Assembly: GCA_016124895.1 (NCBI GenBank)
Contig: WGMU01000050.1
Location: 1 to 64,000, forward strand
DNA: 64,000 bases
Direction: 5' to 3'
Origin: a bacterium
GTDB lineage: Bacteria; Planctomycetota; Planctomycetia; Planctomycetales; Planctomycetaceae
Under the pieces are notes generated by a model that saw only the letters and a list, made by a program, of their open reading frames with translations, made no database searches and was not told the origin of the DNA. Both the position numbers and the translations under genes were made by a program. Shown here piece after piece: positions 6,887 through 22,788 of the stretch (positions within the stretch are counted from its first letter, which is position 1; each line of letters starts with the position of its first letter).

Positions 6887-7252
6887 TCAAAACTCGTCGG
6901 CCGTGCCGGGCCGTTCGGGGAGTGACCAGGTGAGTTCGAGTTGTTCGTTGCTGATCCGGAACTGGAAGTCGACGTGCCCGCGGCCGTCGCGACAGATGTC
7001 GCTGCAGCCGTCCTGTTGAAGCCAGTCGAAGTTCAGTGACAACGAACCTTCCGTTTCCGACCGGAAGCTGATGTCGCGAATGCTCAGGGAGTTTTCGACG
7101 TACGCCGCATGTTCGTAGTGCAGTCGTGCCCAGAGCGACGCGGCGGTTGCGCAGGCGTCGAAGTTTCGCTCGACGCAGGCAGCGATGCCGGATCGGTCCG
7201 GTGAAGAATCGCCCAGCGGCAGTTGAATCAGTCGGTCGGTCGAGACAGTCAT
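6887..7252 (-). CDS. Hypothetical protein, translationally coupled to PSD1 gene
   Basis: A 121-residue protein without signal peptide or membrane helix. The C-terminal half (HVDFQFRISNEQLELTWSL) has an alternating beta-strand pattern. No family is recognised. Its ATG overlaps the stop codon of the PSD1 gene by one base (TGATG at 7250-7254), which strongly suggests coupled translation. A small cytoplasmic protein inserted between a secreted cytochrome and its secreted DUF1501 partner is unusual. Confidence 0.7.
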   Translation of the reverse strand: MTVSTDRLIQLPLGDSSPDRSGIAACVERNFDACATAASLWARLHYEHAAYVENSLSIRDISFRSETEGSLSLNFDWLQQDGCSDICRDGRGHVDFQFRISNEQLELTWSLPERPGTADEF

Positions 7253-10200
7253 CAGTTTTTCGTCAGCACTTCGTCGAGATTGAGAACCAGATTGGCGACC
7301 ATCGTCCAGGCCGCCAGGTCAGTCTGGTCCATACTGTCGGTGACTGGAGCTTCGCCGATTGCGAGCAGTTTGCCGGCCGCTTCGGGATCGGAAGCGAAGT
7401 CTTTTTTCAAATCGTTGAAGACGGACACCAGTTCGGCGATCTCGGCATCCGTTGGCTGTCGTGCGGTGGCAAGGTTCAGCATCCGGGCGGCGCGGGCTTC
7501 GGGAGAGTCTCCGGCTTCGATGGCAACGCGCTGCGCCAGGCCGCGGGCACATTCGACGTACTGCGGATCGTTCAGCAGCAGCAGCGCCTGCAGTGGCGTG
7601 TTGGTGCGTTCGCGGCGGACGGTGCAGGCTTCGCGTGACGGCGCGTCAAACGTACTCATCTCCGGCGCGACCGCCGTTCGCTTCAGGAAGGTGTACAGCG
7701 TCCGGCGATGGACCTTGTCGTCTCCCTTGTCGGCCACAAAGCGGACCGTGTTCGATCCGCTGTAACCGACGGCAAACCACAGGCCGTCGGGTTGCGGCGG
7801 CTTGACACTCGGGCCGCCGATCTTTTCGTTGAGCAGTCCGCTGACCACGAGTGCCTGGTCGCGGAGCATTTCGGCATCGAGCCGGAAACGCGGACCGCGG
7901 GCGAGGAGTCGGTTCGTCGGGTCGGCTTCCAGCACTTCCGGAGGAACGTCCGACGTCTGCCGGTAAGTCGCCGACAGCACCAGCCGCTTCATGAATGCCT
8001 TAACGTCCCAGCCGTCATCCTCGAACTGCACCGCGAGCCAGTCGAGCAGTTGTGGATGGCTCGGCGGTTCGCCCTGCGAGCCAAAGTCTTCGGTCGTTTT
8101 GACAATCCCCGTCCCGAAAACCTGCTGCCACAGCCGGTTGACAGTGACCCGGGCGGTCAGCGGGTGCGAGCGATCGACGAGCCATTCGGCAAATCCGAGC
8201 CGGTTGAGCGGTGCGCCTTCCGGGAGCGGCGGCAGCACTCCGGGAACGGCGCGCTGCACTTGTTCTTTCTGCTGGTCGTACTCACCGCGGTTCAACACGT
8301 ACGCGGGCTTCTGATCTTTCTTCTCACGGAAGATCAGCGTCGTCGGTGCGCTGTTTTTCGTGTCAGTGATCTGCTTTTCGGCGTCGGCGATCGCCGCGTG
8401 CAGCGGATCGAACGTCTTCTGCGTGCTGGCGAGAACGTTCTCGACAAAGTAGTCGAGCAACTGCTTCTGCTGAGCGTCGCTGCGTTTGTCGGCATCGAGT
8501 AGAACGATCGGCTTAATCGAGTCAGGCAGCGAGCCTGCGTTGGCTGCTTTCTGATCGCGTTCCCAGACGAGCAGCGAGTCATACAGCGGGTTCTGGTCCG
8601 ACTTGCTGACGATGCCAGCCTTATCCCACGAGACCTTGCCGTCGAACTGCGTGAATGCCCAGCCGTTGACCTGCGAGCCCTCTCTGAGACCGACCTGATC
8701 GACAGGGACTTCCAGACGCACCCACTCGCCAGCCTTCGGCAGATCTCCGATACGTCGGCGGCTGGGACTGTCGGCCTTACCCCAGTCGATATGGTCGCCA
8801 CCCCAGACGGCGCGATGCTCCCACGAGCCATCGTTCCACTGCAGCATGATCTCCTTCGGTGGATTCTTCTCATCGAGCCAGACGTAGCAGAAGAACTGAT
8901 CGCCGTCGGCGACGCGCAGCGGATTCTTCGCTCCGGTAAAGAAGTGCTGACTGAGGCCGGCAGCGGTGCGCGTCGAGACCTTACTGCCACTGACCGGTTT
9001 TGGATCATCGACGAACTGCCACGGGCTGTTGCCCTGAGCGTTCGCACCTTCCGGAACGGCGTCGTCGATCCAGACGAACTCTTTCGGTTCGGGGAGCTTC
9101 GCTTCGGCTGGCTGCTCCGGTTCGGTGTAGACGTACGCGGCAAGCTGTTTCGTGATCTCATTCCGCGTGCTGGCGATCTTCGCTTCGAGTTCGGCCACAC
9201 GCGACCTCTGTTCGTCAGTCATGACTTTGATGACCGGATCCGGATCCTTCTTGTTGCCGTCGAGCGGTGCGCCGTCGATTGAGTTGAAAAAGGCGAACAT
9301 CGAATAGAAATCGCGTTGCGTGAACGGGTCGTACTTGTGGTTGTGGCAGCGCGAGCAGTCGAACGTCATGCCCATGAACACGGTGCCGGTCGTCACGACC
9401 CGGTCGACGACGTTGCGGACATAAACCTCTTCGGCGATCGACCCGCCCTCGGAAGTTGTCACATGGCAGCGGTTGAAACCGGTCGCGATCAGGTCGTCTT
9501 CAGTTGGGTTTTCCAGCAGGTCACCGGCGAGCTGTTTGATGACGAACTGGTTGAACGGCAGGTTCTGATTGAACGCGTTGATGACCCAGTCACGGTAGAG
9601 CCACATCTCGCGGTAGTTGTCGAGATGCAGGCCATGAGTGTCGCCGTAGCGCGCGGCATCGAGCCAGAAGCGGGTCATGTGTTCGCCATAGTGCGGCGAT
9701 TCCAGCAGTCGGTCGACGACCTTCTCGTACGCGTCCGGCGATTCATCTTTGACAAAGGCGATGACGTCTTCAGGTTTCGGTGGCAGGCCGGTCAGGTCGA
9801 ACGAAACGCGTCGGATCAGGGTTTCGCGCGAGGCTTCGCGCGACGGATTGATGCGTTTCTCATCGAGACGCTTGCGAATGAACGCGTCGATCGGATTGCG
9901 GACCCAGGCGGGCTGCGACACGGTCGGCGGGGCGGGTTTCTGCGGAGCGATGAATGCCCAGTGTTCGTGCCAGGCAGCTCCGCTTGCAACCCAGCGTTTC
10001 AGCAGATCGATCTCCTCAGGCGAGAGCTTCTTCGTCGAATCGGCCGGCGGCATGACGAGGTCAGCGTCACCGGTCGAGATGCGGGCGACGAGTTCACTGG
10101 CCTCGGGCTGGCCGGGCACGATGACGATCTCTCCGGACTCGGCTGCTCCGTATGCGCTGTCCTTGCGGTCGAGTCGAAATCCTCCCTGGCGTTTGTTCTC

Positions 10201-10335
10201 ATCCGGGCCGTGGCAGGCATAGCACTTGTCGGACAGAATCGGTCGAATGTCGCGGTTGAAGTCGATTTCGTCGGCCGCAAAGGACGTGGAGGGCAGGACG
10301 ATGAGCAGGGCAGCAACGAGTCGATACGCAGTCAC
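7252..10335 (-). CDS. PSD1 and planctomycete cytochrome C domain-containing protein, long form
   Basis: A 1027-residue exported protein. A signal peptide (residues 1-20) is followed by PSCyt1 with CYACH (C38, C41, H42) and GGFRLD. DUF1549 comes next with a second CxxCH (CSRCHNHKYDPF). An insert of about 250 residues rich in beta-strand and tryptophan follows, and then C-terminal DUF1553 (ARVTVNRLWQQVFGTGIV, NTPLQALLLLNDPQYVE). The start codon is GTG at 10335, supported by a GAGGGGA ribosome-binding site five bases upstream. The insert makes it about 300 residues longer than the copy at 118-2298 and may carry a carbohydrate-binding or sandwich fold (inference). It heads the set with the 121-residue gene and the DUF1501 gene. 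Confidence 0.93.
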   Translation of the reverse strand: MTAYRLVAALLIVLPSTSFAADEIDFNRDIRPILSDKCYACHGPDENKRQGGFRLDRKDSAYGAAESGEIVIVPGQPEASELVARISTGDADLVMPPADSTKKLSPEEIDLLKRWVASGAAWHEHWAFIAPQKPAPPTVSQPAWVRNPIDAFIRKRLDEKRINPSREASRETLIRRVSFDLTGLPPKPEDVIAFVKDESPDAYEKVVDRLLESPHYGEHMTRFWLDAARYGDTHGLHLDNYREMWLYRDWVINAFNQNLPFNQFVIKQLAGDLLENPTEDDLIATGFNRCHVTTSEGGSIAEEVYVRNVVDRVVTTGTVFMGMTFDCSRCHNHKYDPFTQRDFYSMFAFFNSIDGAPLDGNKKDPDPVIKVMTDEQRSRVAELEAKIASTRNEITKQLAAYVYTEPEQPAEAKLPEPKEFVWIDDAVPEGANAQGNSPWQFVDDPKPVSGSKVSTRTAAGLSQHFFTGAKNPLRVADGDQFFCYVWLDEKNPPKEIMLQWNDGSWEHRAVWGGDHIDWGKADSPSRRRIGDLPKAGEWVRLEVPVDQVGLREGSQVNGWAFTQFDGKVSWDKAGIVSKSDQNPLYDSLLVWERDQKAANAGSLPDSIKPIVLLDADKRSDAQQKQLLDYFVENVLASTQKTFDPLHAAIADAEKQITDTKNSAPTTLIFREKKDQKPAYVLNRGEYDQQKEQVQRAVPGVLPPLPEGAPLNRLGFAEWLVDRSHPLTARVTVNRLWQQVFGTGIVKTTEDFGSQGEPPSHPQLLDWLAVQFEDDGWDVKAFMKRLVLSATYRQTSDVPPEVLEADPTNRLLARGPRFRLDAEMLRDQALVVSGLLNEKIGGPSVKPPQPDGLWFAVGYSGSNTVRFVADKGDDKVHRRTLYTFLKRTAVAPEMSTFDAPSREACTVRRERTNTPLQALLLLNDPQYVECARGLAQRVAIEAGDSPEARAARMLNLATARQPTDAEIAELVSVFNDLKKDFASDPEAAGKLLAIGEAPVTDSMDQTDLAAWTMVANLVLNLDEVLTKN

Positions 10336-10552
10336 TTGAGTCCCCTCGGGCTGAGGTTGTCGATGTCGGAGTGAAAGACGTTGGCAAGCAAACAGGCAGG
10401 ATGCCAGGGTGGGCTCTATTGTGGAGGGCGAGGTCCATTATCCACAGACTCCGATGCGACGTCGAGTGATCTCGCGGATTTGCAGTCGGACGGTTGATTG
10501 GACGGGCGAATCGCGCCGTCGTCCATCGTGTCGAAAGAAAGGTCCGTTGAAA

Positions 10553-10864
10553 ATGGATGACGTCGCTCTCGAAGCTCATGAGCAGGGAACTGTGCTGCCG
10601 GTGCAGGCTCAGCCGCGGGCGAAGAAGAACGGCATTGCGGGTTGCCACGATGGAGCGCTCAAGGTGCAGGTGACGCAGGCTCCAGAGAAGGGCAAGGCCA
10701 ACGACGCTCTGGTCAAGGTCATCGCGAAAGAGCTGGGACTGAGGAAGTCGCAGCTTCAGTTGCTCAGCGGCGCGACGTCGACACGCAAAAAGTTTCTGGT
10801 GGCCGGTGTCAGCGCCGCGGCACTCCGAAATCAGATCGAAACAGTCCTGAAATCCCGGCCATAG
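10553..10864 (+). CDS. YggU/DUF167 family protein
   Basis: A 103-residue protein matching the DUF167 (YggU) family. The conserved core VTQAPEKGKANDALVKVIAK and the LLSGATSTRKKFLV motif are both present. Family members are small alpha/beta proteins of unknown function. The frame is open for 48 more codons upstream, but the ATG at 10553 fits the family length (about 95-105 residues) and follows an AAAGG-like ribosome-binding site. It is transcribed away from the PSD1 gene; the 217-nt gap between them should hold divergent promoters. Confidence 0.9.
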   Translation: MDDVALEAHEQGTVLPVQAQPRAKKNGIAGCHDGALKVQVTQAPEKGKANDALVKVIAKELGLRKSQLQLLSGATSTRKKFLVAGVSAAALRNQIETVLKSRP

Positions 10865-10961: not shown

Positions 10962-10990
10962 TTGACAGTAGATCCGGCGCGACCTAGCAT
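10962..10990 (+). promoter_or_regulatory. Candidate sigma70-type promoter for the envelope operon
   Basis: A perfect TTGACA at 10962-10967 is followed after 17 nt by TAGCAT at 10985-10990 (four of six matches to TATAAT). It lies 98 nt after the DUF167 stop and about 165 nt before the probable start of the first operon gene. Confidence 0.6.
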
Positions 10991-11155
10991 GGCCGACCAA
11001 CTCCTTGCCAGGCGGCGAATTCAGGCTGACCCGTTCGAGACATTCAGCCTGCTGCCGACTGAATCCGCGTTTTCCCGTCTGATCGATCTCCAGCGAACCC
11101 GGCCCGGTACTCCCGTCTCACGCGAGTGGTTTCCGGCTTCGGTAAAGGCCTGACT

Positions 11156-12061
11156 GTGTCCGTCTCCGAACCTCGTCCGCAGAACGATTACCGTCAGAAG
11201 CCAGTGATGAAAGTCACAGGCTATGACAAGTCGTCGGCGGGGATGATCGCCGCGGTACTGACACTGCTGGGCATTACGGCGCTGCTGGTCGCGGTTTACT
11301 TCACGAATTACCGCCCGCCGAAAATCGACGCAGTCCCGGTCGAACTGGTCGATATGCCGGGCGGCTATGAAGACGGCAGCCCGGACGAAACGCCGAACCT
11401 TGAATCTCCGGAAGAAGAAGTTCCAGACCCGGCCATCGCGGAGACGACGGACGAGGCTCAGGTGCAGGAGATGCTGGAGACAATCGTCGAACTGTCCGAC
11501 GCGGCAACGCAGCAGGTCGAGATGGTCATTCAGTCGGAGTCGTCACAGAATTCCGGCCAGAAGGGCAGTGCAACCGGCACCGGAGGCCGGCCGCTGGGAA
11601 CGGGAGGCGGCGGCAAGGGCGGGTTTCCGGCCGAGCAGCGCTGGTTCATCAAGTTCGACGACGACACGATCGACGTTTACGCGCGGCAGCTTGATTTCTT
11701 CGGCATTGAACTGGCCGCGTTTTATCAGTCTGAAGCGAAGCTGGTTTACATCAGTGATATGGCAAAGCCGAAGCCGACGGTGCGCGAAGTCAAAACCGGT
11801 GGCGACAACCGGCTGTTCATGACCTGGCGCGGCGGCACCCGGCGGCAGGCGGATGAATCGCTGTTCAAGAAGGCCGGCTACGAAGCGAAGGGCATCCCGA
11901 TTATGCACATGTATCCGAAGGCGACCGAGCAGTTGCTGGCCGAAGTCGAGGTCGCCTATCGCAACCGCAAGCCCACCGAGATTCGCCGGACTTATTTCAG
12001 CGTCCGCCAGGATGGAGCCGGCTTCAAGTTTGTCGTAACCAGCCAGTCCTACCTGCGGTAG
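11156..12061 (+). CDS. Single-pass envelope protein, first gene of ExbB/ExbD operon
   Basis: A protein of about 301 residues with a short cytoplasmic N-terminus, one membrane helix near residues 29-50, an acidic Pro/Glu-rich segment, a Gly-rich linker (TGGRPLGTGGGGKGG) and a C-terminal domain of about 150 residues beginning RWFIKFDDDTIDVYARQL. This layout (N-terminal anchor, extended linker, compact periplasmic domain) resembles that of TonB/TolA energy transducers, but no TonB_C or TolA motif is recognised. The start is uncertain: GTG at 11156 has AAAGG seven bases upstream, ATG at 11207 would also keep the helix, and GTG at 11126 is possible. It precedes the ExbB-type gene by 65 nt. Confidence 0.75.
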   Translation: MSVSEPRPQNDYRQKPVMKVTGYDKSSAGMIAAVLTLLGITALLVAVYFTNYRPPKIDAVPVELVDMPGGYEDGSPDETPNLESPEEEVPDPAIAETTDEAQVQEMLETIVELSDAATQQVEMVIQSESSQNSGQKGSATGTGGRPLGTGGGGKGGFPAEQRWFIKFDDDTIDVYARQLDFFGIELAAFYQSEAKLVYISDMAKPKPTVREVKTGGDNRLFMTWRGGTRRQADESLFKKAGYEAKGIPIMHMYPKATEQLLAEVEVAYRNRKPTEIRRTYFSVRQDGAGFKFVVTSQSYLR

Positions 12062-12126
12062 GCAGCGCGCGGCCGGCTGGTTTCGTTTCTCTCAGATTTC
12101 CCGCACCTTCTCTGACTGAACCCACA

Positions 12127-12789
12127 ATGGACCTGACGCTCATTCTTGAATGGATCGGCAACGGGATTTACGCCGCGATGGCGGCCGTTGCGATTTACGG
12201 TGTGTTTACCGCGATTCTGATTGCCCGACGAATCACTCAGAAACGATTCCGCAGTCATGCGGGCGCGGAGGAGTTTCTCGACGAGGTGCGTGACAATCTG
12301 GACAAGCAGCAGTACGAAGGCGTCGCCGATCTGTGCGACACGCCAGCGTACTGGGCGAAAGCCGTCCCGCAGCTTCTGCTGGTCGCGGTCGCCAACCGCA
12401 ATCGGCCTGTCGCCAAGATTCGCAAGCTGATGGGCGAGCACTTTGACCGCGAGATTCTGGCCGATCTGGATTACCGGATGTCGTGGATCAATACCGTGGT
12501 CAAGACAGCGCCGATGCTCGGGCTGCTGGGAACCGTGACCGGCATGATCGCGGCCTTCGGCAAGATCGCCGGTGCGTCAAAGACGGGTGCCGATCCGAGC
12601 GCCCTCGCCGGGGACATCAGCTTCGCGCTGTTCACGACGGCTATGGGCCTGATGATTGCCATTCCGCTGGTCATGCTCGGTGCATGGCTGCAGGTTCGGG
12701 TTGGCAAGCTGCAGGACGAAGTGCAGCAGTATCTGGGTGTCTTTCTGGAAGACCTTGAGAACGCGGTCATGAAAGCCGGGAGGCGTTAG
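12127..12789 (+). CDS. MotA/TolQ/ExbB proton channel family protein
   Basis: A 220-residue inner-membrane protein with three predicted helices (about residues 12-36, 118-142 and 155-182). The MotA/TolQ/ExbB signature TAPMLGLLGTVTGMIAAFGK is followed by ISFALFTTAMGLMIAIPLVM, as in ExbB and TolQ. Such proteins form the pentameric proton-conducting ring around the ExbD/TolR helices and power an envelope machine. It lies two bases upstream of the first ExbD gene, the normal order. Whether it is Tol-like, Exb-like or a separate class cannot be told from the sequence; no TolA, TolB, Pal or TonB-dependent receptor lies nearby. Confidence 0.93.
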   Translation: MDLTLILEWIGNGIYAAMAAVAIYGVFTAILIARRITQKRFRSHAGAEEFLDEVRDNLDKQQYEGVADLCDTPAYWAKAVPQLLLVAVANRNRPVAKIRKLMGEHFDREILADLDYRMSWINTVVKTAPMLGLLGTVTGMIAAFGKIAGASKTGADPSALAGDISFALFTTAMGLMIAIPLVMLGAWLQVRVGKLQDEVQQYLGVFLEDLENAVMKAGRR

Positions 12790-12791
12790 TC

Positions 12792-13232
12792 ATGGCCAGA
12801 CGCTCGATGTCGGGCAAAAAGAAGAAGGCGGACGAAGCGGACCTCGACATCACGCCGATGATCGACGTCACGTTTCTGCTGCTGATCTTCTTTATGGTCG
12901 CGTCCAAAATGGACCCGCAGAAGCAGGCGAACGTACCGCCGGCAGTGCATGGCGCTGGTGTCGATGCAAACGCTGCGACAATTGTCTCCGTGTTCGCCGA
13001 CCCGGGAGGCGGTCCCGCGCGAGTCGTGCTCGGCGACGGTCCGGACGGCGAAGAAGCGCCCAGTATGGAACTCGTCAAACGCTATGTGCAGACCGGACTG
13101 CAGGACGGCAAAGAGATCTGCATTGTCAAAGCTGACCGTGACGTGAACGAGGGCAAGGTTCAGGAAGTACTGAAAGTGCTTGGTGAGCTGGAGGGCCTGC
13201 AGTTCGCCGTCGGCGTCAAGGATCCACAATAG
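12792..13232 (+). CDS. ExbD/TolR family protein (first copy)
   Basis: A 146-residue protein with a lysine-rich cytoplasmic N-terminus and one membrane helix (about residues 23-42, starting DITPMIDVTFLLLIFFMV). D25 occupies the place of the essential proton-carrying aspartate of ExbD/TolR. The small periplasmic domain has KEICIVKADRDVNEGKVQEV, typical of the C-terminal ExbD/TolR fold. It follows the ExbB-type gene after two bases and precedes a second ExbD gene after ten bases. Two adjacent ExbD genes usually mean two different subunits in one stator. Confidence 0.95.
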   Translation: MARRSMSGKKKKADEADLDITPMIDVTFLLLIFFMVASKMDPQKQANVPPAVHGAGVDANAATIVSVFADPGGGPARVVLGDGPDGEEAPSMELVKRYVQTGLQDGKEICIVKADRDVNEGKVQEVLKVLGELEGLQFAVGVKDPQ

Positions 13233-13242
13233 AGAGGATCAG

Positions 13243-14142
13243 ATGCCGATCAGATTCCGCTGCCCGAAGTGCTCTCAGACTTACAGCATTTCGTCGAAAA
13301 AGGCCGGTACGAAAATCCGCTGCCAGAAGTGCGGCGCGAAAATGCGCATCCCGTCACTCGAACCGAAGGACGCGGCGGATGATGAGCAGCCGGCTGGCGA
13401 GCTGGACGAAGCGGAAGAGAACCCGGCGCTGACGCCGGAACTCAAAAATGCGTTCGATAACCTGTTCAATGACGATGACTTCGCGGACGACGGTCAGGAT
13501 GTCGATTTCGCCGAAGCGTCAGAACCGGCTGACGCGACTGCGCGTGCGGCTGAATCGACAGAAGCGGCGACGACCGAACGGGGGTTCGAGGATGTTGATG
13601 CCGTTCTGGAGTTCGAGCGGGAACTCGAAGAAGCCGGTCACGAGGCCGCTGCGCCAGCGCCCGTTTATATCCCGGACGAACTGTTTGCTGGCGAGGATGA
13701 CGATGACGACGAGGAAGACGTTCTCTTCGGTGGCGGACGCGGCGGCGATGACGAGGAAATGGACCTGACGCCGATGGTCGACGTTACGTTCCTGCTGCTG
13801 ATCTTTTTCATGATCACTGCGTCGTTCAGCATCCAGAAGACGCTGGAAGTGCCCGCTCCCGACCCGGATGAAGAAGGGGCTTCGACGTCGATTTCAATTC
13901 AGGAAATGGAAGAGACCTCGGTCACCGTGCATATCGATTCGCGCAACGTCATGTACGTTGACGACGAACCGGTCAGCGACCCGACCCGCCTGCCGGACAT
14001 GCTGCGGGCCAGCCGGATGAATGAGGTGTTGATTACATCTCACGAAGACGCGCTGCACGAGATGGTCGTCAAGGCGATCGACGCAGCGAACGAGGTTCAG
14101 ATGCAGAAGATACGGCTCGGCGTGACGCGCGGGGCGGAGTAG
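13243..14142 (+). CDS. Zinc-ribbon-fused ExbD/TolR family protein (second copy)
   Basis: A 299-residue protein. Residues 1-40 form a zinc ribbon with two CxxC pairs (CPKC and CQKC), beginning MPIRFRCPKC. A long, very acidic linker (about 45-170) follows, then the ExbD helix with LTPMVDVTFLLLIFFMI and the conserved aspartate at D180, then a periplasmic ExbD domain. Ordinary ExbD proteins have about 20-25 cytoplasmic residues; this one has about 175 with a metal site. The ATG at 13243 is preceded by AGAGAGG and matches the MPI start of two other ribbon proteins in the window. The zinc ribbon may let the stator bind a cytoplasmic partner (inference). Confidence 0.93.
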   Translation: MPIRFRCPKCSQTYSISSKKAGTKIRCQKCGAKMRIPSLEPKDAADDEQPAGELDEAEENPALTPELKNAFDNLFNDDDFADDGQDVDFAEASEPADATARAAESTEAATTERGFEDVDAVLEFERELEEAGHEAAAPAPVYIPDELFAGEDDDDDEEDVLFGGGRGGDDEEMDLTPMVDVTFLLLIFFMITASFSIQKTLEVPAPDPDEEGASTSISIQEMEETSVTVHIDSRNVMYVDDEPVSDPTRLPDMLRASRMNEVLITSHEDALHEMVVKAIDAANEVQMQKIRLGVTRGAE

Positions 14143-14358
14143 CGAACAGTTAAGCCAGACACGGAACGCGGTTTCGGACGATTCAGACAACCCATAACGC
14201 CTTCGGCGTACGTCTCAATTGACCTCTGCAGAAACAAGTGATTGCCTGAGTCGACGCGGAACGTCGGAACAGAACTCTGACGCACTCGATGATCTCGATG
14301 ATAAAGACAACCTGACCTGCCGGTTCGCTGAGCCGGCTCGCAGGAAGGACTGATTGCG

Positions 14359-17300
14359 ATGGCGAAAAAAGACGGGACACCCGACTGGCTCGACGAAGAG
14401 GATCTCTTCGACGACGACGAGGGCGATGTCTTCGACGAAGATTCCGGTCCGCAAAAGCCGCCTGTGCTGAAACGCGGCGGGGGCACCGTCGACGAAAAGC
14501 AGTCGGCACAAACAGCGGTCGACGACGATGATTCGGACGCCGGCAAAGAGAAGACAAAGAAGGAGCCATCGGCGCTCGCACGCATGGCGCTGAAGCACCA
14601 GAAGCGGCCGGGCGAGCAGGAATCGGTCAAGTCGCCACTGGTGCTTTCGCTCGCCGGTCTGGCAGTGGCACTCGCCGTCGCCGCTGGCGCGTACTGGTTC
14701 ATCATCGGACGAAAAGCGACCGAACAGGAACTCGCTGCGATCGACGGAGCGATCTCTGAGCAGCGGTACTCGCAAGCCATTGCGTCGCTGGACGATTTTC
14801 TGCTGCGACATGGCCGCGACAGCTACACGTATCCGGCAACCGTGAAGCGGGCGAAGGCACGCATCGATAAGGAGATCGCCGGCTCGGCGCCCGCCTGGGA
14901 AAACGGTCTGAAGGAACTGAATCAGTACAACGAAGATGTCCGCGACTTCGAGGAATACAAGGAAGAGTATCCGGCTCTGGCAGAGTACTCCGAAAAGATC
15001 GCCCTGGGCTCGCTGGAGAGTGCCGCGAAGCTGAAACGTGAAGAATTACTCACTGTGTCGAAAGATGCGGAGTTGCTGATCGATCGGTTCAGCGATCCGG
15101 AGAATCCGCCGACCGAGCTGCACGACCAGATCAAGCTCGCGCGCGAGAAGGCGGAAGCGGCGATTACGAAACACAAAGCGACTCAGGCGACTTATGCGGA
15201 GATCGCGAAGTTTCTCGAACGCAGGACGCCACTGGAAGCGCTCAAGTCGCGTCGTCGACTGCTGGATCGCTACTCCGAACTCGCGACCGATAAGAAGCTG
15301 AACGAACTGCTGGAGCAGACGCTCGAAACCGAACGCGATCTCGTCAAACGCGAGGACCTGAAACAGGAAGCGTCGACGGAAGATCGACCGCTGCCGGTTC
15401 CGCCGCCACTGTCGCTGACGTTGCACACGCGGGCGCGTACCGACGAAATGGCTTCCGGCCGGACCGTCTTCGCAGTGGCTCAAGGCTGTGTGTACGGCAT
15501 CGATACAGCGACCGGAGATCCGGTCTGGCGTCGTTCGATTGGGCCGGACACGCCGTTCTTTCCCGTCGAGGTCAACACGTTCGTCGACGGTCTGCTCTGC
15601 TTCGACACGACCTGGCGGGAACTGGTGCTGCTCAATCGGCTGACGGGTGAACTGGCCTGGCGGCAGACGCTCGATGAACCCGTCTCGGGCGAACCTCTTG
15701 TTCACAGCGGTCAGGTTTATCTGCCGACGCTGGGCAACCATCTCTACAAGATCGAACTCGAATCCGGAACCGCCACTGCACGGCTGACGTTTTCGCAACC
15801 CGTCTATTCGCCGCCGGTGCTGACTCGCGATCAGGAACACCTGGTCATCGCAGGTGACGAAGCCGTCTGCTATTCGGTCAGCACACGTGAAATGCAGTGC
15901 GAAGTCGTCTCGTTTATCGGCCAGCGTCCGGGAACAATTGACGTGCCTCTGCTGTCGATGGGCGAGCTGGTACTGATGGTCGAGAACGATCAGACCAATT
16001 CGGCACTGCTTCGCGTGCTGGACGCATCGGCCGCGGGTGACGGTCTGACCGAACGCGGGAGAATCCGCGTCGAAAAGCATGTACGAGATCGGCCGGTTCT
16101 GCGCGGCAATCAACTGTTCGTGCCGGCGGAAGGTGAGCAGTTCAACGTGTTCACGGTCAGCGACGATCCGGACAAGCAGCCGCTGAGTCCGATCGCCAAA
16201 CCGCCGAAGCTGTCCGACTACGCCGGGCCGGTGCATCTGCTGGCCGGAGCGGACGGCATGGTCTGGTCGGCCAGCGACAACCTGCGTCTGTTTCAGTTGA
16301 ACCAGGACTCAATGCTCGAAGACCAGCAGAAGCGGGTCTTCATCGGCGCGGCGGCTCAGCCGCTGCAGAGTATCGGGCGGACGCTGTTCGTCGGCTGGCA
16401 TCAGCTCGAAAGTGATTCCGTCGCGCTGTACCAGTACGACGGCGAAACAATGACCGACCAGTGGAAGACGGTCGTCGGCAGTGGTCTGCTTCAGATCATG
16501 CCGAGCGGTGACAGCAGCGCGGTCTGTCTGACGAAATCAGGTGAGCTGTTTCAGGTGACGGAAAAGGATCTCGAAGCGGGTGGCTTCCGGTTCCAGCCGA
16601 ATGGAACGCTCGAACTCCCGGCTGAACTCGAAGAACCGCTGCACGCCGGGCTGCTGCCGAATCAGCAGATGGCCGTTTCGATGGGCGGCCAGAGTGCGCG
16701 GCTGTGGATCGTCAATCAGGCTGGAAAAATCGGCCAGGACTTTCCGATGGAAGCCGGCGCGGTGCTCGATCCGGTTCCCGTGGCTGGCGGAGCCGTCGTG
16801 CCACTCGCGGCAAAACTGCGCGTCGTTGGAGTGCCTGGTTCGCTGGTCGAAGATTATCTCGGCACGATCGAACAGGCGGAAGGCGTGCAGTGGGTCGCGC
16901 TGCAGCCGATCGACGACAACGACGTGCTGATTGTTGATCGTGCAGGCCGCGTCAGTCGGCTGCAGTATCGAACGTCGCCGTCGCCGCACCTGCAGCAGGT
17001 CGACACCCTGGAACTCGGTCAGCCCGTCGATGTGCAGCCGGTTGTCAACAACGGCCGTGTGGTGCTCGCCGATTCCGGAGGCACACTGCGGGCGCTCAAC
17101 GCAGCCGGGTTCGAGCGGCTGGCGGAAACGAAACTCGGTTCACCGGTCGTCGGGAAGCTGGTCGTCGCCGGCGATCTGGTTCTCGCCGAGGATGCGAAAG
17201 GCTCGTTGCACTGCCTCGATCTGACGCAGGATCTCAAGGATCGCTGGACAACGCCGTTGCAGGGTGATCATCTCAGTGGGACGCCGCTGTTGAAAAACGG

Positions 17301-17490
17301 TCGCCTGGTTGTCGCGACAATGAACGGAACGGTTCGTGTCTTTGATGCCGGGTCGGGTGAGGCCGTCCGGTCGTCGCAGCTCGACCAGCCAATCGAGCAC
17401 GGACCGATACAGATCGGGAAATTCCTCGTGGTGGCGTCGATCGACGGCAGCCTGTACCGCATCGACAGCCTGCTGGGAGGTGAGCAATGA
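14359..17490 (+). CDS. PQQ-type beta-propeller membrane protein
   Basis: A 1043-residue protein. A very acidic cytoplasmic segment (residues 10-65) leads to one membrane helix (93-117), a helical coiled-coil-like or TPR-like region (about 125-330), and then a long series of PQQ/pyrrolo-quinoline-type repeats (for example VFAVAQGCVYGIDTATGDPVW and GTVRVFDAGSGEAV). This predicts a periplasmic propeller similar in general form to BamB, but anchored and much longer. The start has AGGAAGGA upstream. The 216-nt gap before it is the largest in the operon; its end overlaps the next gene by 4 nt (ATGA). It is probably a scaffold or ligand-binding component of the machine. Confidence 0.85.
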   Translation: MAKKDGTPDWLDEEDLFDDDEGDVFDEDSGPQKPPVLKRGGGTVDEKQSAQTAVDDDDSDAGKEKTKKEPSALARMALKHQKRPGEQESVKSPLVLSLAGLAVALAVAAGAYWFIIGRKATEQELAAIDGAISEQRYSQAIASLDDFLLRHGRDSYTYPATVKRAKARIDKEIAGSAPAWENGLKELNQYNEDVRDFEEYKEEYPALAEYSEKIALGSLESAAKLKREELLTVSKDAELLIDRFSDPENPPTELHDQIKLAREKAEAAITKHKATQATYAEIAKFLERRTPLEALKSRRRLLDRYSELATDKKLNELLEQTLETERDLVKREDLKQEASTEDRPLPVPPPLSLTLHTRARTDEMASGRTVFAVAQGCVYGIDTATGDPVWRRSIGPDTPFFPVEVNTFVDGLLCFDTTWRELVLLNRLTGELAWRQTLDEPVSGEPLVHSGQVYLPTLGNHLYKIELESGTATARLTFSQPVYSPPVLTRDQEHLVIAGDEAVCYSVSTREMQCEVVSFIGQRPGTIDVPLLSMGELVLMVENDQTNSALLRVLDASAAGDGLTERGRIRVEKHVRDRPVLRGNQLFVPAEGEQFNVFTVSDDPDKQPLSPIAKPPKLSDYAGPVHLLAGADGMVWSASDNLRLFQLNQDSMLEDQQKRVFIGAAAQPLQSIGRTLFVGWHQLESDSVALYQYDGETMTDQWKTVVGSGLLQIMPSGDSSAVCLTKSGELFQVTEKDLEAGGFRFQPNGTLELPAELEEPLHAGLLPNQQMAVSMGGQSARLWIVNQAGKIGQDFPMEAGAVLDPVPVAGGAVVPLAAKLRVVGVPGSLVEDYLGTIEQAEGVQWVALQPIDDNDVLIVDRAGRVSRLQYRTSPSPHLQQVDTLELGQPVDVQPVVNNGRVVLADSGGTLRALNAAGFERLAETKLGSPVVGKLVVAGDLVLAEDAKGSLHCLDLTQDLKDRWTTPLQGDHLSGTPLLKNGRLVVATMNGTVRVFDAGSGEAVRSSQLDQPIEHGPIQIGKFLVVASIDGSLYRIDSLLGGEQ

Positions 17491-20129
17491 GCGATGTTCG
17501 CCTGCCTGGCCGGTTTCGTCGACGTACCACTATTGCGGTGCTGCCGGTGTCGGTACGTCATCCCGCACTGACCGCTCTGCTCACGCTGCTGTTCACGTTG
17601 CCGCTGTCGAGTTCGACGGTCGTCCATGCTCAGAATCAGACCACTCCGAATACCGAGCCCGCTCAGCCTGCCGCCGAAGCAGAGAAACCGAAGCTGCCGC
17701 TGGTCTCGGAGATGAAACTTCCGTCAGCGGAAGAACTACTGACGGGCGATCCGCTCGACTGGATCGTTCTGCAGAAGGAAGAAGTGCTCGTCACTCAGCC
17801 GGTCTATCCGCGTCCGGCAACGCTGGAAAAACTCGCGAAGCAGAACGAGGACCTGCGGAGTGCGAAAACCCGTCCGCCGCGCGATCCGGGTGAAACTCAG
17901 GAAGAGTATCAGGAGCGGATGGCCCGGCTGATTGACGAGACGCTCAATCTGACGGTCATCCTGCCGGACACGGTGAAGGTCGACGCGGTCAATCAGGCAG
18001 CCGAATACAAGTTGAACATCGCGCGCAACATTGATCGGATCATCTATCACGAAGACCTGATGCTCCGGCGGACGGACATTCTGATCAACGAGGGAAAGCT
18101 CGATACCGCGTTTGAGATGCTGCTGGCGCTTGATCGTACTGCGAAGGGCTGGCCGGGTTTTGAAGAGCGGCGCAACCGGCTGATCTTCGAGGAGGCTCAG
18201 GTTCGTCTGCGTGAGGATGATCTCGAATCCGCACTGGCGTTCTTTGAAGAGCTTTACACGCTGGCACCGCAGTACGCCGGATTACGTGAAGGGATCGGCC
18301 GGACGATCGAACGACTGGTCCTCAGCGCTCGGGAAAAGAATGATCTGCGGCAGGCACGTTATTACATCACGCGGCTGCAGCAGTCTGATCCGCAGCACCC
18401 GATCGCGGTCTCTCTGACGAAGCAGTTCACTCAGGAAGCGGCTGACCTGCTGCAGCAGGCGTCGGCGCAGTTCGGTCGAGGCGAGTTTCCCGAAGCAGTG
18501 GCCTCCGCTCAGCAGGCTGCCCGTGTCTGGCCGGTGCATCCACAGTTGCGGAATGTCTTTCGCATGGTGGCTTCGCGTTATCAGGTGCTGTCGGTCGGCG
18601 TCCAGCGTCTGCCCGGCGATCCGACACCGTTCTTCCTGCCGACCGCCGCTGATCAACGGCACCTGTCACTGCTGGCCGCTGACCTGTTCGAGATCCGCAG
18701 CTTCGACCGGGCACCGGCTTATCAGTCACGTTTCTTTGAAGAGTGGACGCCGACGGATCTCGGGCGGCAGATTGTGTTCTCACTGCAGCCGCGTCGCGCG
18801 GCGTGGGAGTCGATTCCCGTACTGACCGCTCCGCAGATCGTCCGTTCGATTGGGGATCGACTGCGTCCCGACTCGCCGTGGTACGACGAACGGCTCGCGA
18901 CGTTCGTGCATTCGATCGATGTCCGATCGCCGTACGAATTCGAGATGAACTTCCTGAACGTTCCGGTTCGGCCGCAGGCGCTGTTCCGGTTTCCGGTACG
19001 CGGCCTCTCGCACGACCGGTCTCCTTCTCTTGAGGATGGAACCACCGCAGGCAATAGCGTCACTGCGGAAAGCAATGCGGTGGGGGACGGCGTTGCGACT
19101 TCGGCCGAGCCTGACTTCCTGGCGAATCTGCTTTCGTCGCGGTTTCAGGTTCATGATCAGACAGAAGAGCGAGTGGTCTTCCGCCGGATGATTCCGCAGA
19201 GCGAACGGCTGTCGTCGTTTGCCGTTGCCGAGATCATTGAAACGAAATACGGCAACGATGAATCCTGCGTCAAAGGTCTGCTCAGCGGCGACGTTTCCGT
19301 CGTGCCGCATCTTCCGATCTGGCTGGCGGAACAGTTTGACTCGGATGAGCGTTTCTTCGTCGAACCGTACGGCGTGCCGACAACGCACGTGCTGCAGTTC
19401 AATCCGGAAAGCAAAGCGCTGCAGAATTCCGAATTCCGCCGGGCACTGGCGACGTCGCTTGACCGGCAGAAGATTCTCAGCGAGACCGTGCTGCGGAATC
19501 CGAACTCGACCCGCGGTCGCATCGTGTCGGCTCCGTTCCCCAGTCGCAGTTACGCGTACGACCCGACGATCGAACCGCGTGAACGCGACCTGCCGCTGTC
19601 GATTTCTCTGCTGACGTTTGCGAAGAAGCGTTTCGGCGGCGAACTCCCGGAACTCACGATGGTCTGCGAACCCGACGACACGGTACGACAGGCCGCCGAA
19701 GAGATCGCTCAGCAATGGCAGCGATTCGGGTTAAAAGTCGACGTGGTCTCGGACAACGGTGCGCCGACACCGAAGAAATGGGACATCGTTTACCGGACCG
19801 TCAGCATGGCCGAACCGGTCACGGACCTGTGGCCGTTCCTCACGATGAAACCGGACGCCCGCGTCGCAGACCTCGAATATCTTCCGGACTGGTTGCGACA
19901 GTCGATGATCGAACTGGAGCAGTCCGTCGACTTCAACGGCTCGGTTGCGAAACTGAAGGAACTGCACTTCCGGCTGCGCGAACTCGCTCTGGTCATCCCG
20001 CTGTGGGAAATCGACGACGTGATCGTCATACGAAAAAACATTCAGGGCTTCTCGCAGCGACCGACGCAGCCGTACCAGAACGTCGAACGCTGGACGGTGC
20101 AGCCGTTTTACCCGCAGGATGGCATCTGA
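17487..20129 (+). CDS. TPR-like plus family-5 solute-binding protein
   Basis: An 880-residue exported protein. A long signal peptide ends near residue 48 (VHAQ). Residues 180-380 are helical and TPR-like (DDLESALAFFEELYTLAPQY is a typical repeat). From about 410 to the end it matches peptide/nickel-type ABC solute-binding proteins of family 5 (SBP_bac_5): THVLQFNPESKALQNSEFRR, LATSLDRQKIL and LVIPLWEID are typical. No ABC permease or ATPase gene is present in the operon, and the TPR-like front is unusual. The gene overlaps the propeller gene by 4 nt, so both products are probably made in fixed ratio. The ligand is unknown. Confidence 0.85.
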   Translation: MSDVRLPGRFRRRTTIAVLPVSVRHPALTALLTLLFTLPLSSSTVVHAQNQTTPNTEPAQPAAEAEKPKLPLVSEMKLPSAEELLTGDPLDWIVLQKEEVLVTQPVYPRPATLEKLAKQNEDLRSAKTRPPRDPGETQEEYQERMARLIDETLNLTVILPDTVKVDAVNQAAEYKLNIARNIDRIIYHEDLMLRRTDILINEGKLDTAFEMLLALDRTAKGWPGFEERRNRLIFEEAQVRLREDDLESALAFFEELYTLAPQYAGLREGIGRTIERLVLSAREKNDLRQARYYITRLQQSDPQHPIAVSLTKQFTQEAADLLQQASAQFGRGEFPEAVASAQQAARVWPVHPQLRNVFRMVASRYQVLSVGVQRLPGDPTPFFLPTAADQRHLSLLAADLFEIRSFDRAPAYQSRFFEEWTPTDLGRQIVFSLQPRRAAWESIPVLTAPQIVRSIGDRLRPDSPWYDERLATFVHSIDVRSPYEFEMNFLNVPVRPQALFRFPVRGLSHDRSPSLEDGTTAGNSVTAESNAVGDGVATSAEPDFLANLLSSRFQVHDQTEERVVFRRMIPQSERLSSFAVAEIIETKYGNDESCVKGLLSGDVSVVPHLPIWLAEQFDSDERFFVEPYGVPTTHVLQFNPESKALQNSEFRRALATSLDRQKILSETVLRNPNSTRGRIVSAPFPSRSYAYDPTIEPRERDLPLSISLLTFAKKRFGGELPELTMVCEPDDTVRQAAEEIAQQWQRFGLKVDVVSDNGAPTPKKWDIVYRTVSMAEPVTDLWPFLTMKPDARVADLEYLPDWLRQSMIELEQSVDFNGSVAKLKELHFRLRELALVIPLWEIDDVIVIRKNIQGFSQRPTQPYQNVERWTVQPFYPQDGI

Positions 20130-20180
20130 AATCCAATTCGGCGTTTGACCGAGGTTCGTTCGAGCTGATCGCCAACAGGA

Positions 20181-22157
20181 ATGATGGAAATGCGATTGCC
20201 CCGGATTCTGATCACACTGCTGTTCGGCGCTGTTCTGGCGCTGCTGGCTGGTGATCGCTGGCTCGTCGACCTGTCGGCGCAGGAGGCTGCTCAGCAACAG
20301 GCAATGAAGACGCCGGCGGCTCAGGACGCTCCGTCGACAACCGCGGCTGCGCAGCCTGCCGCACCAGAAGCCGGGTCAAACGCCGCTGCCGCGGACACAG
20401 AAACGGAAGTCGAACCGCCGCCGGTGAAGATTCCGCCACCGCCCCCGGTCCGGCCGGACAAAGTCGATATCGATCTTGAGCGTTACCGCGTCGAGATCCC
20501 GATCGTGTTTCAGCCGCATCCACGCATGGGACCGGAATTCCGGCAGGGGATCATAGACGAACTGAAGACCATCGCGGATCGATCGATTGGTCCCATGTGG
20601 GATCTCTCAATCACCACCGCCGACTGGATCACGCCGCAGGCCGAACAGGGGATCGAGCGGCTGACTCTGGAGCAGATCAAAAGGCGGCAGACGGAAGAGG
20701 CGTACTACCTCGCGATTCACGAACAGATTGCGGCGCAGAGCGACGGCAAGTTTCCGTCCGTGCCGCTCAAACCGCTCGACGACTCAACGCGCAGCCGGCT
20801 GCGTATGGTTCTTGACACGCCGGAAGACGCCAGGCAGGAAGCGTTACTGCGTGAATTTGTTGACGCCGTCGCCGGGGGCGAAATTCCGGAAGAGAAGCTC
20901 GATACCGCCAGCGAAGTCGTGTTTCTGTATCTCACTCCGCCGGAGATGACGCTCGACAAGCTGTACCCTGTGTCGGTGGAACTCGACGGTTCAGAGTATT
21001 CAGTCGCATCGCGTGAATGGGATCGAGCATCGGAACTCATCACGCCGGTGCGTCGCCGGTCGACAATCGACCGCCGCGCTGTTGCGACAGAAATCGCACG
21101 GCTGCTGACCGAACTCTTCCGTCCGCTGGTGCAGATCGAATCGGCCGATCCGGTATCAGCCCGCGTGCGAACGATGGCCAGCGAGTATGTGCCCGCGGAT
21201 CCCGGCTTCCGCCAGGTCAGGGAGGGCACGATGTTCATTCCGCTGTTCCGCTATCTCGACCGCAACCGCGTGGTGCAGAAGATTCAGTTTCTGCCCTGGA
21301 CGTATCTGACGGCGGAGCAACTCGAACGGACGCGGGCCAACTGCCGCGTCGACACCGGTGTCAAAACGCCGCTGGGAGCTTTCCGTCGGCGTCGTATGGA
21401 ACTGCGGGCACTGCGCATCAACCCGGAACTCGATGCGAGCACACTGACGCTGGTGCCGCGTCGCAATCAGTCGAAACCGCTCGTCGGATACCTCGTCGCC
21501 GTCTACAACGACCCGCCGCCACCGCCACCGAAAGAAGACGAAAAGAAATCCTCTGAGGAAGTGGCCGAGGCAGAAAAGGCCGACGAGGAACGTGAAAAGC
21601 CGGACGTCTATCGCAGCGATCGACTGGGGCAGGTGACGATCCCCGTCGATCCGGAAGACGCTCTGCAGTGGGTGTTTATTCGCAGCGGAACCGCTCTGCT
21701 GGCGAAGTTTCCGATCGTCGTCGGCACGGAAGCGAACATGATTGTCGAATGTCCGGACGACACAATTCGCCTGGACGTCGAAGGCCAGATCGCGTTGCTG
21801 CAGAGCAGTCTCGTCGACACGATCGCCAAGCGGGAAATGGTTAAGGCAATGATTCGTAACCGGATGAAGAAGGACGAGTGGGACAAGGTCGACGAATCGG
21901 TGGGCGAACTGAAATCGCTGCCCGGTTACGAGGACTTCAAGAAAGAAGTCGGAGAGATTCAGTACTCCGCGATCAAACGTGCCCAGGCCCGAAAGGACCG
22001 CATCTCAGAATCCCGAATCAAAAAGCTCGGCGACGAGGTGCTCAAGATCGCATCGATCCATCTGGACGAGAAAAAGATCAACGACCTGATTGAAGAGGTT
22101 CAGGAGCAGCGTCCCGGTGGTCCGGTGGGACGTAAGAAGGTGCCGGGGCAGCCCTGA
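20181..22157 (+). CDS. Large unknown envelope protein of the ExbB/ExbD operon
   Basis: A protein of about 658 residues with an N-terminal signal or anchor (residues 5-24), an Ala/Pro-rich stretch (about 35-100), a mixed globular region, a PPPPPPKEDEKKSSEE linker near 450 and a charged helical C-terminus. No known family is recognised. ATG codons at 20181, 20184 and 20190 are all possible starts; the AGGA at 20178 best suits the last. It sits 51 nt after the solute-binding gene and 49 nt before a small membrane gene in the same direction. Its job is presumed to be in the same envelope complex (inference). Confidence 0.75.
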   Translation: MMEMRLPRILITLLFGAVLALLAGDRWLVDLSAQEAAQQQAMKTPAAQDAPSTTAAAQPAAPEAGSNAAAADTETEVEPPPVKIPPPPPVRPDKVDIDLERYRVEIPIVFQPHPRMGPEFRQGIIDELKTIADRSIGPMWDLSITTADWITPQAEQGIERLTLEQIKRRQTEEAYYLAIHEQIAAQSDGKFPSVPLKPLDDSTRSRLRMVLDTPEDARQEALLREFVDAVAGGEIPEEKLDTASEVVFLYLTPPEMTLDKLYPVSVELDGSEYSVASREWDRASELITPVRRRSTIDRRAVATEIARLLTELFRPLVQIESADPVSARVRTMASEYVPADPGFRQVREGTMFIPLFRYLDRNRVVQKIQFLPWTYLTAEQLERTRANCRVDTGVKTPLGAFRRRRMELRALRINPELDASTLTLVPRRNQSKPLVGYLVAVYNDPPPPPPKEDEKKSSEEVAEAEKADEEREKPDVYRSDRLGQVTIPVDPEDALQWVFIRSGTALLAKFPIVVGTEANMIVECPDDTIRLDVEGQIALLQSSLVDTIAKREMVKAMIRNRMKKDEWDKVDESVGELKSLPGYEDFKKEVGEIQYSAIKRAQARKDRISESRIKKLGDEVLKIASIHLDEKKINDLIEEVQEQRPGGPVGRKKVPGQP

Positions 22158-22206
22158 CAGCGTCTGCCAATCAATTACCCGCAGCATCGCCGATGGGAGC
22201 AACGGA

Positions 22207-22788
22207 ATGTGGTTCACTGAGGATGCCTGGTCGCCCATCGTTCTGTGCGTGATTGCTGCGGTGATCTTCTTTATTGCGTGGTCGACGACACAGCGCCCAC
22301 GGCTGTTGCTGGGAGTTCCGCTCGCGTTGCTGGCGGCGGTCGTGATCTACTTCGTCGAGCAGTCCATCGTGACGGACCGCGAGCAGGTCGAAGCCGATCT
22401 TGATTCTCTGCTGCATACGTTCGTTGAAGAGTCTCAGGAACTGCATGGCAGTGCCAGCCAGACTCCCGCGAATCTGCGTACGCTTGATTTCTTCTCGGCT
22501 CAGAACACGACAGACCGGGCGCGTGTCGCTGCCGCGCTGAATCTGGTCGTCGTCGAAGATGTGCGCATTACCGACGTTCAGACGCGACTGACGAACGAAG
22601 ACACTCGCGCCGTGACGCACTTCCGAGCCAACGGAAACGTCTCGCTCTCGGGCTCCAGCGGCGGCAGTCATTATTCGTCCCGCTGGGAACTGACCTGGCA
22701 GAAAGAAGCCGGCCGCTGGACTGTCACGCGAACAAAGATGCTCAACATCATGACGGGCGAGGAGCAGTCGATCCCCCGAATCGATTGA
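22207..22788 (+). CDS. Two-helix membrane protein with NTF2-like C-terminus
   Basis: A 193-residue protein, last of the envelope operon. Two membrane helices (about residues 8-25 and 32-52) are followed by a soluble domain of about 140 residues with alternating strands ending SRWELTWQKEAGRWTVTRTK. That pattern is like NTF2/SnoaL-type domains, but the match is only by pattern. The start ATG follows GGGAGCAACGG; the frame is open further upstream, where it overlaps the preceding gene. Nothing else about its role can be read. Confidence 0.75.
   Translation: MWFTEDAWSPIVLCVIAAVIFFIAWSTTQRPRLLLGVPLALLAAVVIYFVEQSIVTDREQVEADLDSLLHTFVEESQELHGSASQTPANLRTLDFFSAQNTTDRARVAAALNLVVVEDVRITDVQTRLTNEDTRAVTHFRANGNVSLSGSSGGSHYSSRWELTWQKEAGRWTVTRTKMLNIMTGEEQSIPRID

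Follow-up and report, generated by a model that had tools for sequence, protein, structure and literature searches.

The Planctomycetia are a class of bacteria with macromolecule import, an unusual envelope and, to our knowledge, no FtsZ. What energises their outer membrane is a question raised by a gene cluster of a Planctomycetaceae genome (GenBank assembly GCA_016124895.1; 8.1 Mb, approximately 99.8% completeness), of which one stretch of 64,000 nucleotides was analysed (contig WGMU01000050.1, positions 1 to 64,000; hereafter the window). Seven genes, lettered A to G (window 11,126-22,157), encode a putative proton-driven motor of the ExbB/ExbD type together with unusual partners, and are followed by an eighth downstream gene, H. 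A to G are retained as a set across the Planctomycetia and are best read as encoding a proton-driven trans-envelope force machine resembling the Agl-Glt system of Myxococcus xanthus, most likely devoted to envelope upkeep, which makes them a concrete candidate for energising the planctomycete outer membrane. The genes are as follows:

11126..12061, + strand: gene A, bitopic inner-membrane protein with a transmembrane (TM) helix, linker and C-terminal domain (list of open reading frames, ORFs; structural model)
12127..12789, + strand: gene B, ExbB/TolQ-type proton channel subunit (PF01618, E=3.3e-26)
12792..13232, + strand: gene C, ExbD/TolR-type subunit 1 (PF02472, E=3e-15)
13243..14142, + strand: gene D, second ExbD, whose N-terminus bears a cytosolic zinc ribbon and an acidic linker (PF02472, E=1.3e-20; zinc ribbon, E=6.9e-6)
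14359..17490, + strand: gene E, membrane-anchored BamB-like propeller (PF13360, E=4.5e-26)
17487..20129, + strand: gene F, exported, combining weak TPRs with a family-5 solute-binding domain (PF00496, E=2e-15)
20181..22157, + strand: gene G, exported, with FlgT/TolB_N-like domains (AlphaFold2 model, Foldseek)
22207..22788, + strand: gene H, two-TM protein, outside the conserved machine (hydropathy)

The order of A to G is conserved far above chance. A scan of GTDB with A, at one genome per species, found 126 relatives, 80 of which were kept, nearly all filed under planctomycete names. Among all loci fetched, the complete series A-B-C-D-E-F-G is intact on one contig in 47 (a count that some genomes enter twice) and scrambled in none. 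In neighbourhoods scored with profiles, A to G keep both their order and their orientation in most members of the window's family, and they do so in two other families as well. G was detected in 34 of 40 relatives sampled from the genus, family and class, and F in 65 of 79 genomes of the class, the absences and weakest matches being mostly in one family (f3). In phylum-wide samples of approximately 390 and 290 genomes, A and G are essentially limited to the window's class, and A to G are mostly present in a single copy per genome. The set appears to be confined to the Planctomycetia and kept in nearly all members checked except the Gemmata group (here called Gemmata-like, an inferred name for a genus with several members of 9-10 Mb and squalene epoxidase in five of five tested). 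The original prediction, made from the letters of the window, had called the machine planctomycete-specific and had named gene co-occurrence in relatives beforehand as its test; both the restriction to Planctomycetia and the joint occurrence of the genes across that class agree with it.

The strongest evidence that A to G may be regarded as a single functional unit is their co-retention in genomes where the cluster has been broken. Isosphaeraceae such as Singulisphaera acidiphila (L169) have A-E-F-G with no B-C-D alongside, and in three genomes of an Isosphaeraceae-type family (G025, G030 and G034 of family f2) and in G009 a detached B-C-D trio is found elsewhere in the genome. The detached B proteins of these genomes score 191-226 bits on the profile of B, versus no more than 106 bits for any other ExbB paralogue that was scored. 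Another genome (G032) has A-B-C-D on one contig and E-F-G on another; A is separate from a B-G block in G002 and in the Planctopirus-like G316, and likewise stands apart in G354. Because the missing block is recovered elsewhere in six of the split genomes, the parts of A to G seem to be kept as one set. At the loci fetched from contigs labelled Schlesneria, A is alone.

A few matches fall outside this pattern. A contig filed as Alphaproteobacteria MarineAlpha3_Bin4 (L142) has gene A at 47% identity, and is probably a mis-binned planctomycete contig. One genome with a complete cluster also has a second, diverged A without adjoining B-G (L235, G340:C1 near 1383556). At three Gemmata-like loci (L228, L229 and L230), a distant homologue of F (approximately 190 bits) has none of the other six genes as neighbours. 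G-like matches outside the class (G103, G075 and G204) were taken as distant or chance, the two that were fetched having no A-F neighbours, and an A-like match outside the class (G088, E 2e-5) was rejected at only 22 bits.

The motor subunits belong to a known superfamily by their Pfam scores (91.9 bits for B, with a cut-off of 22.9; 56.8 bits for C and 74.2 bits for D, with a cut-off of 25.4). Two pore threonines of B, Thr136 and Thr171, are invariant in 69 sequences, as are the membrane aspartates of the ExbD proteins, Asp25 of C in 68 sequences and Asp180 of D in 64. By motif, these residues correspond to those reported as essential in characterized motors, namely Thr148 and Thr181 of ExbB with Asp25 of ExbD, and Thr145 and Thr178 of TolQ with Asp23 of TolR (PMC12905483). 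The motor is therefore predicted to be intact and proton-driven, in keeping with the stator that had been proposed. The nearest solved structures to B are those of TolQ (E=3.4e-9), and the NCBIfam equivalog scores for tolQ (70.9 bits, with a cut-off of 221) and tolR (42.8 and 40.7 bits, with a cut-off of 127.3) fall short of those expected of Tol-Pal subunits. The window's genome possesses nine ExbB-family genes. At three other ExbB loci of the same genome (L208, G000:C112; L212, G000:C69; L210, G000:C154), two have TPR and ExbD genes and one has two vWA proteins nearby. These loci resemble the force-transducer classes of PMC12204202, and their TPR or vWA neighbours mark them as systems separate from A to G.

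The ExbD protein encoded by D carries a cytosolic domain that differs between lineages, an exchange that the original prediction had no means of seeing. A CxxC-CxxC zinc ribbon precedes the TM helix in 58 of 74 D homologues; a GYF_2-like domain takes this place in Isosphaeraceae-type genomes and G032 (weak, E 0.004-0.03; in L222 by eye); and a complete Ser/Thr kinase is present at eight loci from seven species, all of one Planctomycetaceae clade. The few remaining homologues are cut by contig ends. The kinase, TM helix and ExbD domain form a single uninterrupted frame (Pfam Pkinase, E 1e-47 to 3e-51; ExbD, E 1e-15 to 5e-20), in which the VAVK lysine and the HRDIKPEN and DFG motifs are all intact. 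The fusions are found at these loci:

L049, L113, L130, L136, L141, L150, L234: gene D, kinase-ExbD fusion

A tree of E (FastTree only) places the kinase forms in a single clade, with full support, inside the zinc-ribbon forms; a single replacement of the ribbon is therefore probable, after which the fusion persisted along long branches. A domain that changes in an otherwise retained machine is best taken as a module for input or control, and its interchangeability suggests a motor that may be gated by signals. Literature searches of open-licence papers found no description of kinase-ExbD fusions or of the A-G cluster. What appears to be new, judged by those papers, is the partner set of A to G and the swapping of control domains, the motor itself being of a known superfamily; if the fusions are what they appear to be, they would represent, as far as has been found, an undescribed direct control of a proton-driven stator by phosphorylation.

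Protein A may be the force transmitter of the machine. Its start is either a GTG at 11,126 or a downstream start up to 11,204. The layout comprises a TM helix, a linker that is acidic and then Gly-rich, and a C-terminal alpha/beta domain of approximately 140 aa; the predicted structure is confident for the TM helix (residues 6-35) and for the domain (143-283, numbering from 11204). W147, Y159, D217, E249 and T263 are invariant in 100 sequences. Pfam found nothing above noise in 23 members, with no TonB_C (E up to 1), TolA or vWA domain, and a fold search of the PDB with the model stayed within noise (best E 0.5, Z 3.2), a result compatible with a new fold without demonstrating one. The motor-binding SHLS motif (S-3x-H-6x-L-3x-S) is in none of the 100 A sequences, of which 94 lack any His in the TM region. 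The first gene had been proposed as a TonB/TolA-like force-transmitting rod: the layout fits, whereas the motif and a recognisable TonB or TolA C-terminal domain are lacking, so that the role of A as transmitter is drawn by analogy.

The remaining partners are E, F and G. E is composed of an acidic cytosolic tail, a TM helix (94-112, by hydropathy), a helical region and BamB-like propeller repeats (approximately 365-1040), and matches BamB chains in the PDB (E=3.6e-9). F matches OppA/AccA chains (E approximately 1e-3 to 1e-2), and neither a permease nor an ATPase is encoded beside it in the operon. By hydropathy, A, C, D and E each have a single TM helix, and F and G have N-terminal hydrophobic signals. 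The AlphaFold2 model of G (mean pLDDT 83.6) comprises FlgT/TolB_N-like domains, one CnaB/Ig-like domain and, at the C-terminus, a bundle of helices. Foldseek aligned its first two domains with FlgT structures (8z5n and 3w1e, E approximately 1e-6, probability 1.0); the VIA Z scores are 7.5-8.6 at a root-mean-square deviation (rmsd) of 8-10 A (8.4 over 201 aligned residues for Z 8.6), and the Ig-like domain reaches a VIA Z of 10.3 (rmsd 3.0, 81 aligned). G has no Pfam family. A link to FlgT at the sequence level was rejected, no match having been found in 34 members, and the likeness resides in the predicted fold. Compared with FlgT of the Vibrio flagellar H ring, G aligns over its first two domains, adds the Ig-like and helical domains, and is encoded outside a flagellar operon; TolB_N-like folds such as those of G also occur in TolB, CsgG and PelC.

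The nearest known systems each share part of this inventory. The cluster encodes no TonB, TolA, TolB, Pal or Mot domain detectable by Pfam, as had been noted from the sequence. TolB (PF04052, TolB_N) is absent from eight of eight Planctomycetia genomes, controls such as E. coli being positive. TonB plug receptors, absent from the cluster, number zero in five of these genomes and one in three; all eight but the Gemmata-like one carry A to G. Given few or no TonB receptors, no TolB and no SHLS motif, A to G are not a Ton or Tol system; with TPR and vWA neighbours residing at other ExbB loci, they are likewise separate from the PMC12204202 classes. The ExbB-ExbD-TonB system has similar motor residues, but no TonB is encoded in the A-G cluster. 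Tol-Pal resembles A to G in its TolQ/TolR-type motor, long-linker inner-membrane protein, propeller, TPR protein and broad single-copy distribution, whereas A lacks both SHLS and the TolA C-terminal domain, there are two ExbD proteins, a solute-binding protein and an FlgT-like part are added, and the propeller is BamB-like and anchored in the inner membrane. The TPR-TolQ-TolR-TolR-vWA clusters of PVC bacteria (PMC12204202) also place, in planctomycetes, a TolQ-like gene and a heterologous pair of TolR-like genes beside an unusual candidate transducer; unlike A, that transducer contains a vWA domain and has retained the His of SHLS. The closest parallel is Agl-Glt/Nfs of M. xanthus, which has a motor of a single TolQ-type subunit and two distinct TolR-type ones (AglRQS), TPR periplasmic proteins, and inner-membrane proteins with cytosolic signalling domains, such as FHA on GltG (PMC3169522). 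The Agl class is versatile and modular, with separable motor and output (PMC3858216), as A to G seem to be. A to G differ in that A has no TonB_C domain (GltG has one), the signalling domain is on an ExbD itself, and a propeller, a protein combining solute-binding and TPR domains, and an FlgT-like protein stand in place of the Glt proteins.

It is proposed, with a probability of roughly one half, that A to G constitute one proton-driven trans-envelope machine whose job is most likely regulated maintenance or remodelling of the envelope. B, in five copies by analogy with ExbB and TolQ, would form a proton-driven inner-membrane motor with the C/D pair, and the cytosolic domain of D would act as its control, gating or tuning it on a cytosolic signal. 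The inner-membrane-anchored A and E would pass the movement of the motor across the periplasm to F, a putative periplasmic adaptor and ligand-binding protein, which would relay it to G near the wall or outer membrane. The role would be akin to that of Tol-Pal in other diderms, in a class without recognisable TolB and mostly without TonB receptors. The sequences themselves establish which genes belong to the set, how they are conserved, that the motor residues are intact and that domains were swapped; the complex, the transmission of force, the gating, the target in the outer membrane and the role in the cell are inferred from these. Envelope upkeep is favoured by the broad, mostly single-copy retention, by the absence of catabolic genes linked to the set and by a TolB slot left empty; the signs of such a slot are the absence of TolB_N from all eight genomes, the zero to one TonB plugs, the proximity of B to TolQ, and the TolB_N/FlgT-like folds of G. 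The switchable control domain suggests, in addition, a regulated machine of the Agl-Glt kind. A more specific version, in which a signal-gated machine private to the Planctomycetia uses interchangeable ExbD inputs and a transducer of new fold to do the job of Tol-Pal without its partners, can be put forward tentatively. The set is testable in Planctopirus limnophila, which is genetically tractable and has been the subject of a genome-wide study of transposon insertions; the main text of that study does not mention ExbB or ExbD (PMC10632474).

Four observations weigh against envelope upkeep by a single unit. The gap of 216 bp between D and E could accommodate a second promoter. The solute-binding domain of F is better suited to recognising a substrate than to maintenance alone. 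No Pal is encoded in the cluster, and the OmpA-like proteins of the genome were not searched, so that a partial Tol system is possible. Finally, the Gemmata-like family appears to be without the A-G set, which is therefore not universally required: in two such genomes, none of the three best ExbB genes of each is a true B, G is absent and F is only distant (the searches there covered B, F and G).

The solute-binding domain is also the starting point for energised uptake, in which F would capture an oligopeptide or oligosaccharide, or an outer-membrane protein complex, and large substrates would be drawn into the periplasm by the motor, independently of TonB receptors. Uptake, which the original prediction had paired with movement of material across the envelope, survives as one of several options. 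It is made attractive by the periplasmic import of dextran and chondroitin sulphate in planctomycetes, through machinery not yet identified, and it agrees with the lack of TonB-dependent receptors in most genomes checked. The protonophore CCCP abolishes dextran uptake in Gemmata obscuriglobus (PMC5394234, PMC5520146). Yet Gemmata is known for macromolecule uptake, including that of dextran by G. obscuriglobus, and two Gemmata-like genomes are without G, without a true B among their best ExbB genes, and have only a distant F, which makes A to G unlikely as a general uptake route; nor is any permease, porin or glycan gene consistently linked. Uptake is judged improbable.

Surface transport or movement is similarly doubtful. 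A motor like that of Agl-Glt/Nfs would drag proteins of the envelope over the cell surface, together with an extracellular polymer, holdfast or fibre, as the AglRQS-like motor make-up, TPR proteins and cytosolic signalling domains (cf. the FHA domain of GltG; PMC3169522), the modularity of the Agl class (PMC3858216) and the resemblance of G to flagellar FlgT might suggest. D has a weak match to gliding_GltJ (E=6.8e-5, 22 bits, with a cut-off of 450), but this spans the zinc ribbon and linker, and no other homologue of GltA-K was identified, in a search that did not extend to remote homology; moreover, A lacks the TonB_C domain of GltG, and the set spans lineages of very different lifestyle. 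Trans-envelope signalling, in which a ligand of F would alter the proton flow of the motor and D would report to the cytosol with the kinase as output, has in its favour the ligand-binding domain in the periplasm and the cytosolic module of D (kinase, zinc ribbon or GYF-like), but is very improbable because full conservation of the proton-path residues in B, C and D implies energy use and a catalytic output domain occurs in one clade only.

The preferred reading, a machine for envelope upkeep, treats A to G as an operon on grounds of spacing and conservation. Between a DUF167 gene (10,409) and recJ (22,936) are eight ORFs, all on the + strand, with the short spacing originally described: the gaps are 65 bp (A-B), 2 bp (B-C), 10 bp (C-D), 216 bp (D-E), 51 bp (F-G) and approximately 49 bp (G-H), and E and F overlap by 4 bp. 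The domain calls of ExbB, two ExbD proteins, a PQQ-type propeller and TPRs with a family-5 solute-binding protein were reproduced by Pfam (BamB/PQQ, E approximately 5e-26; TPRs weak). The claim of one good promoter did not hold: the scan gave two matches in 15.5 kb, one of them at 10,962, versus 2.4 +/- 1.6 in shuffles. The match being at chance level, co-transcription of A to G is argued from spacing and conservation. Nor is the unit one of eight genes: H, which has two TM helices, occurs only in the window's genus and at none of 80 named loci, and was rejected as a core part for that reason, leaving A to G as the conserved unit.

Two further genes lie upstream of the cluster. The DUF167/YggU gene (window 10409-10864) is adjacent to the cluster in the closest relatives only, and on this ground was rejected as a part of the machine. 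On the - strand, 7252-10335 encodes a protein of 1027 aa with a cytochrome-like CYACHG motif near its N-terminus, homologues of which are found near the cluster, in no fixed position, in some relatives.

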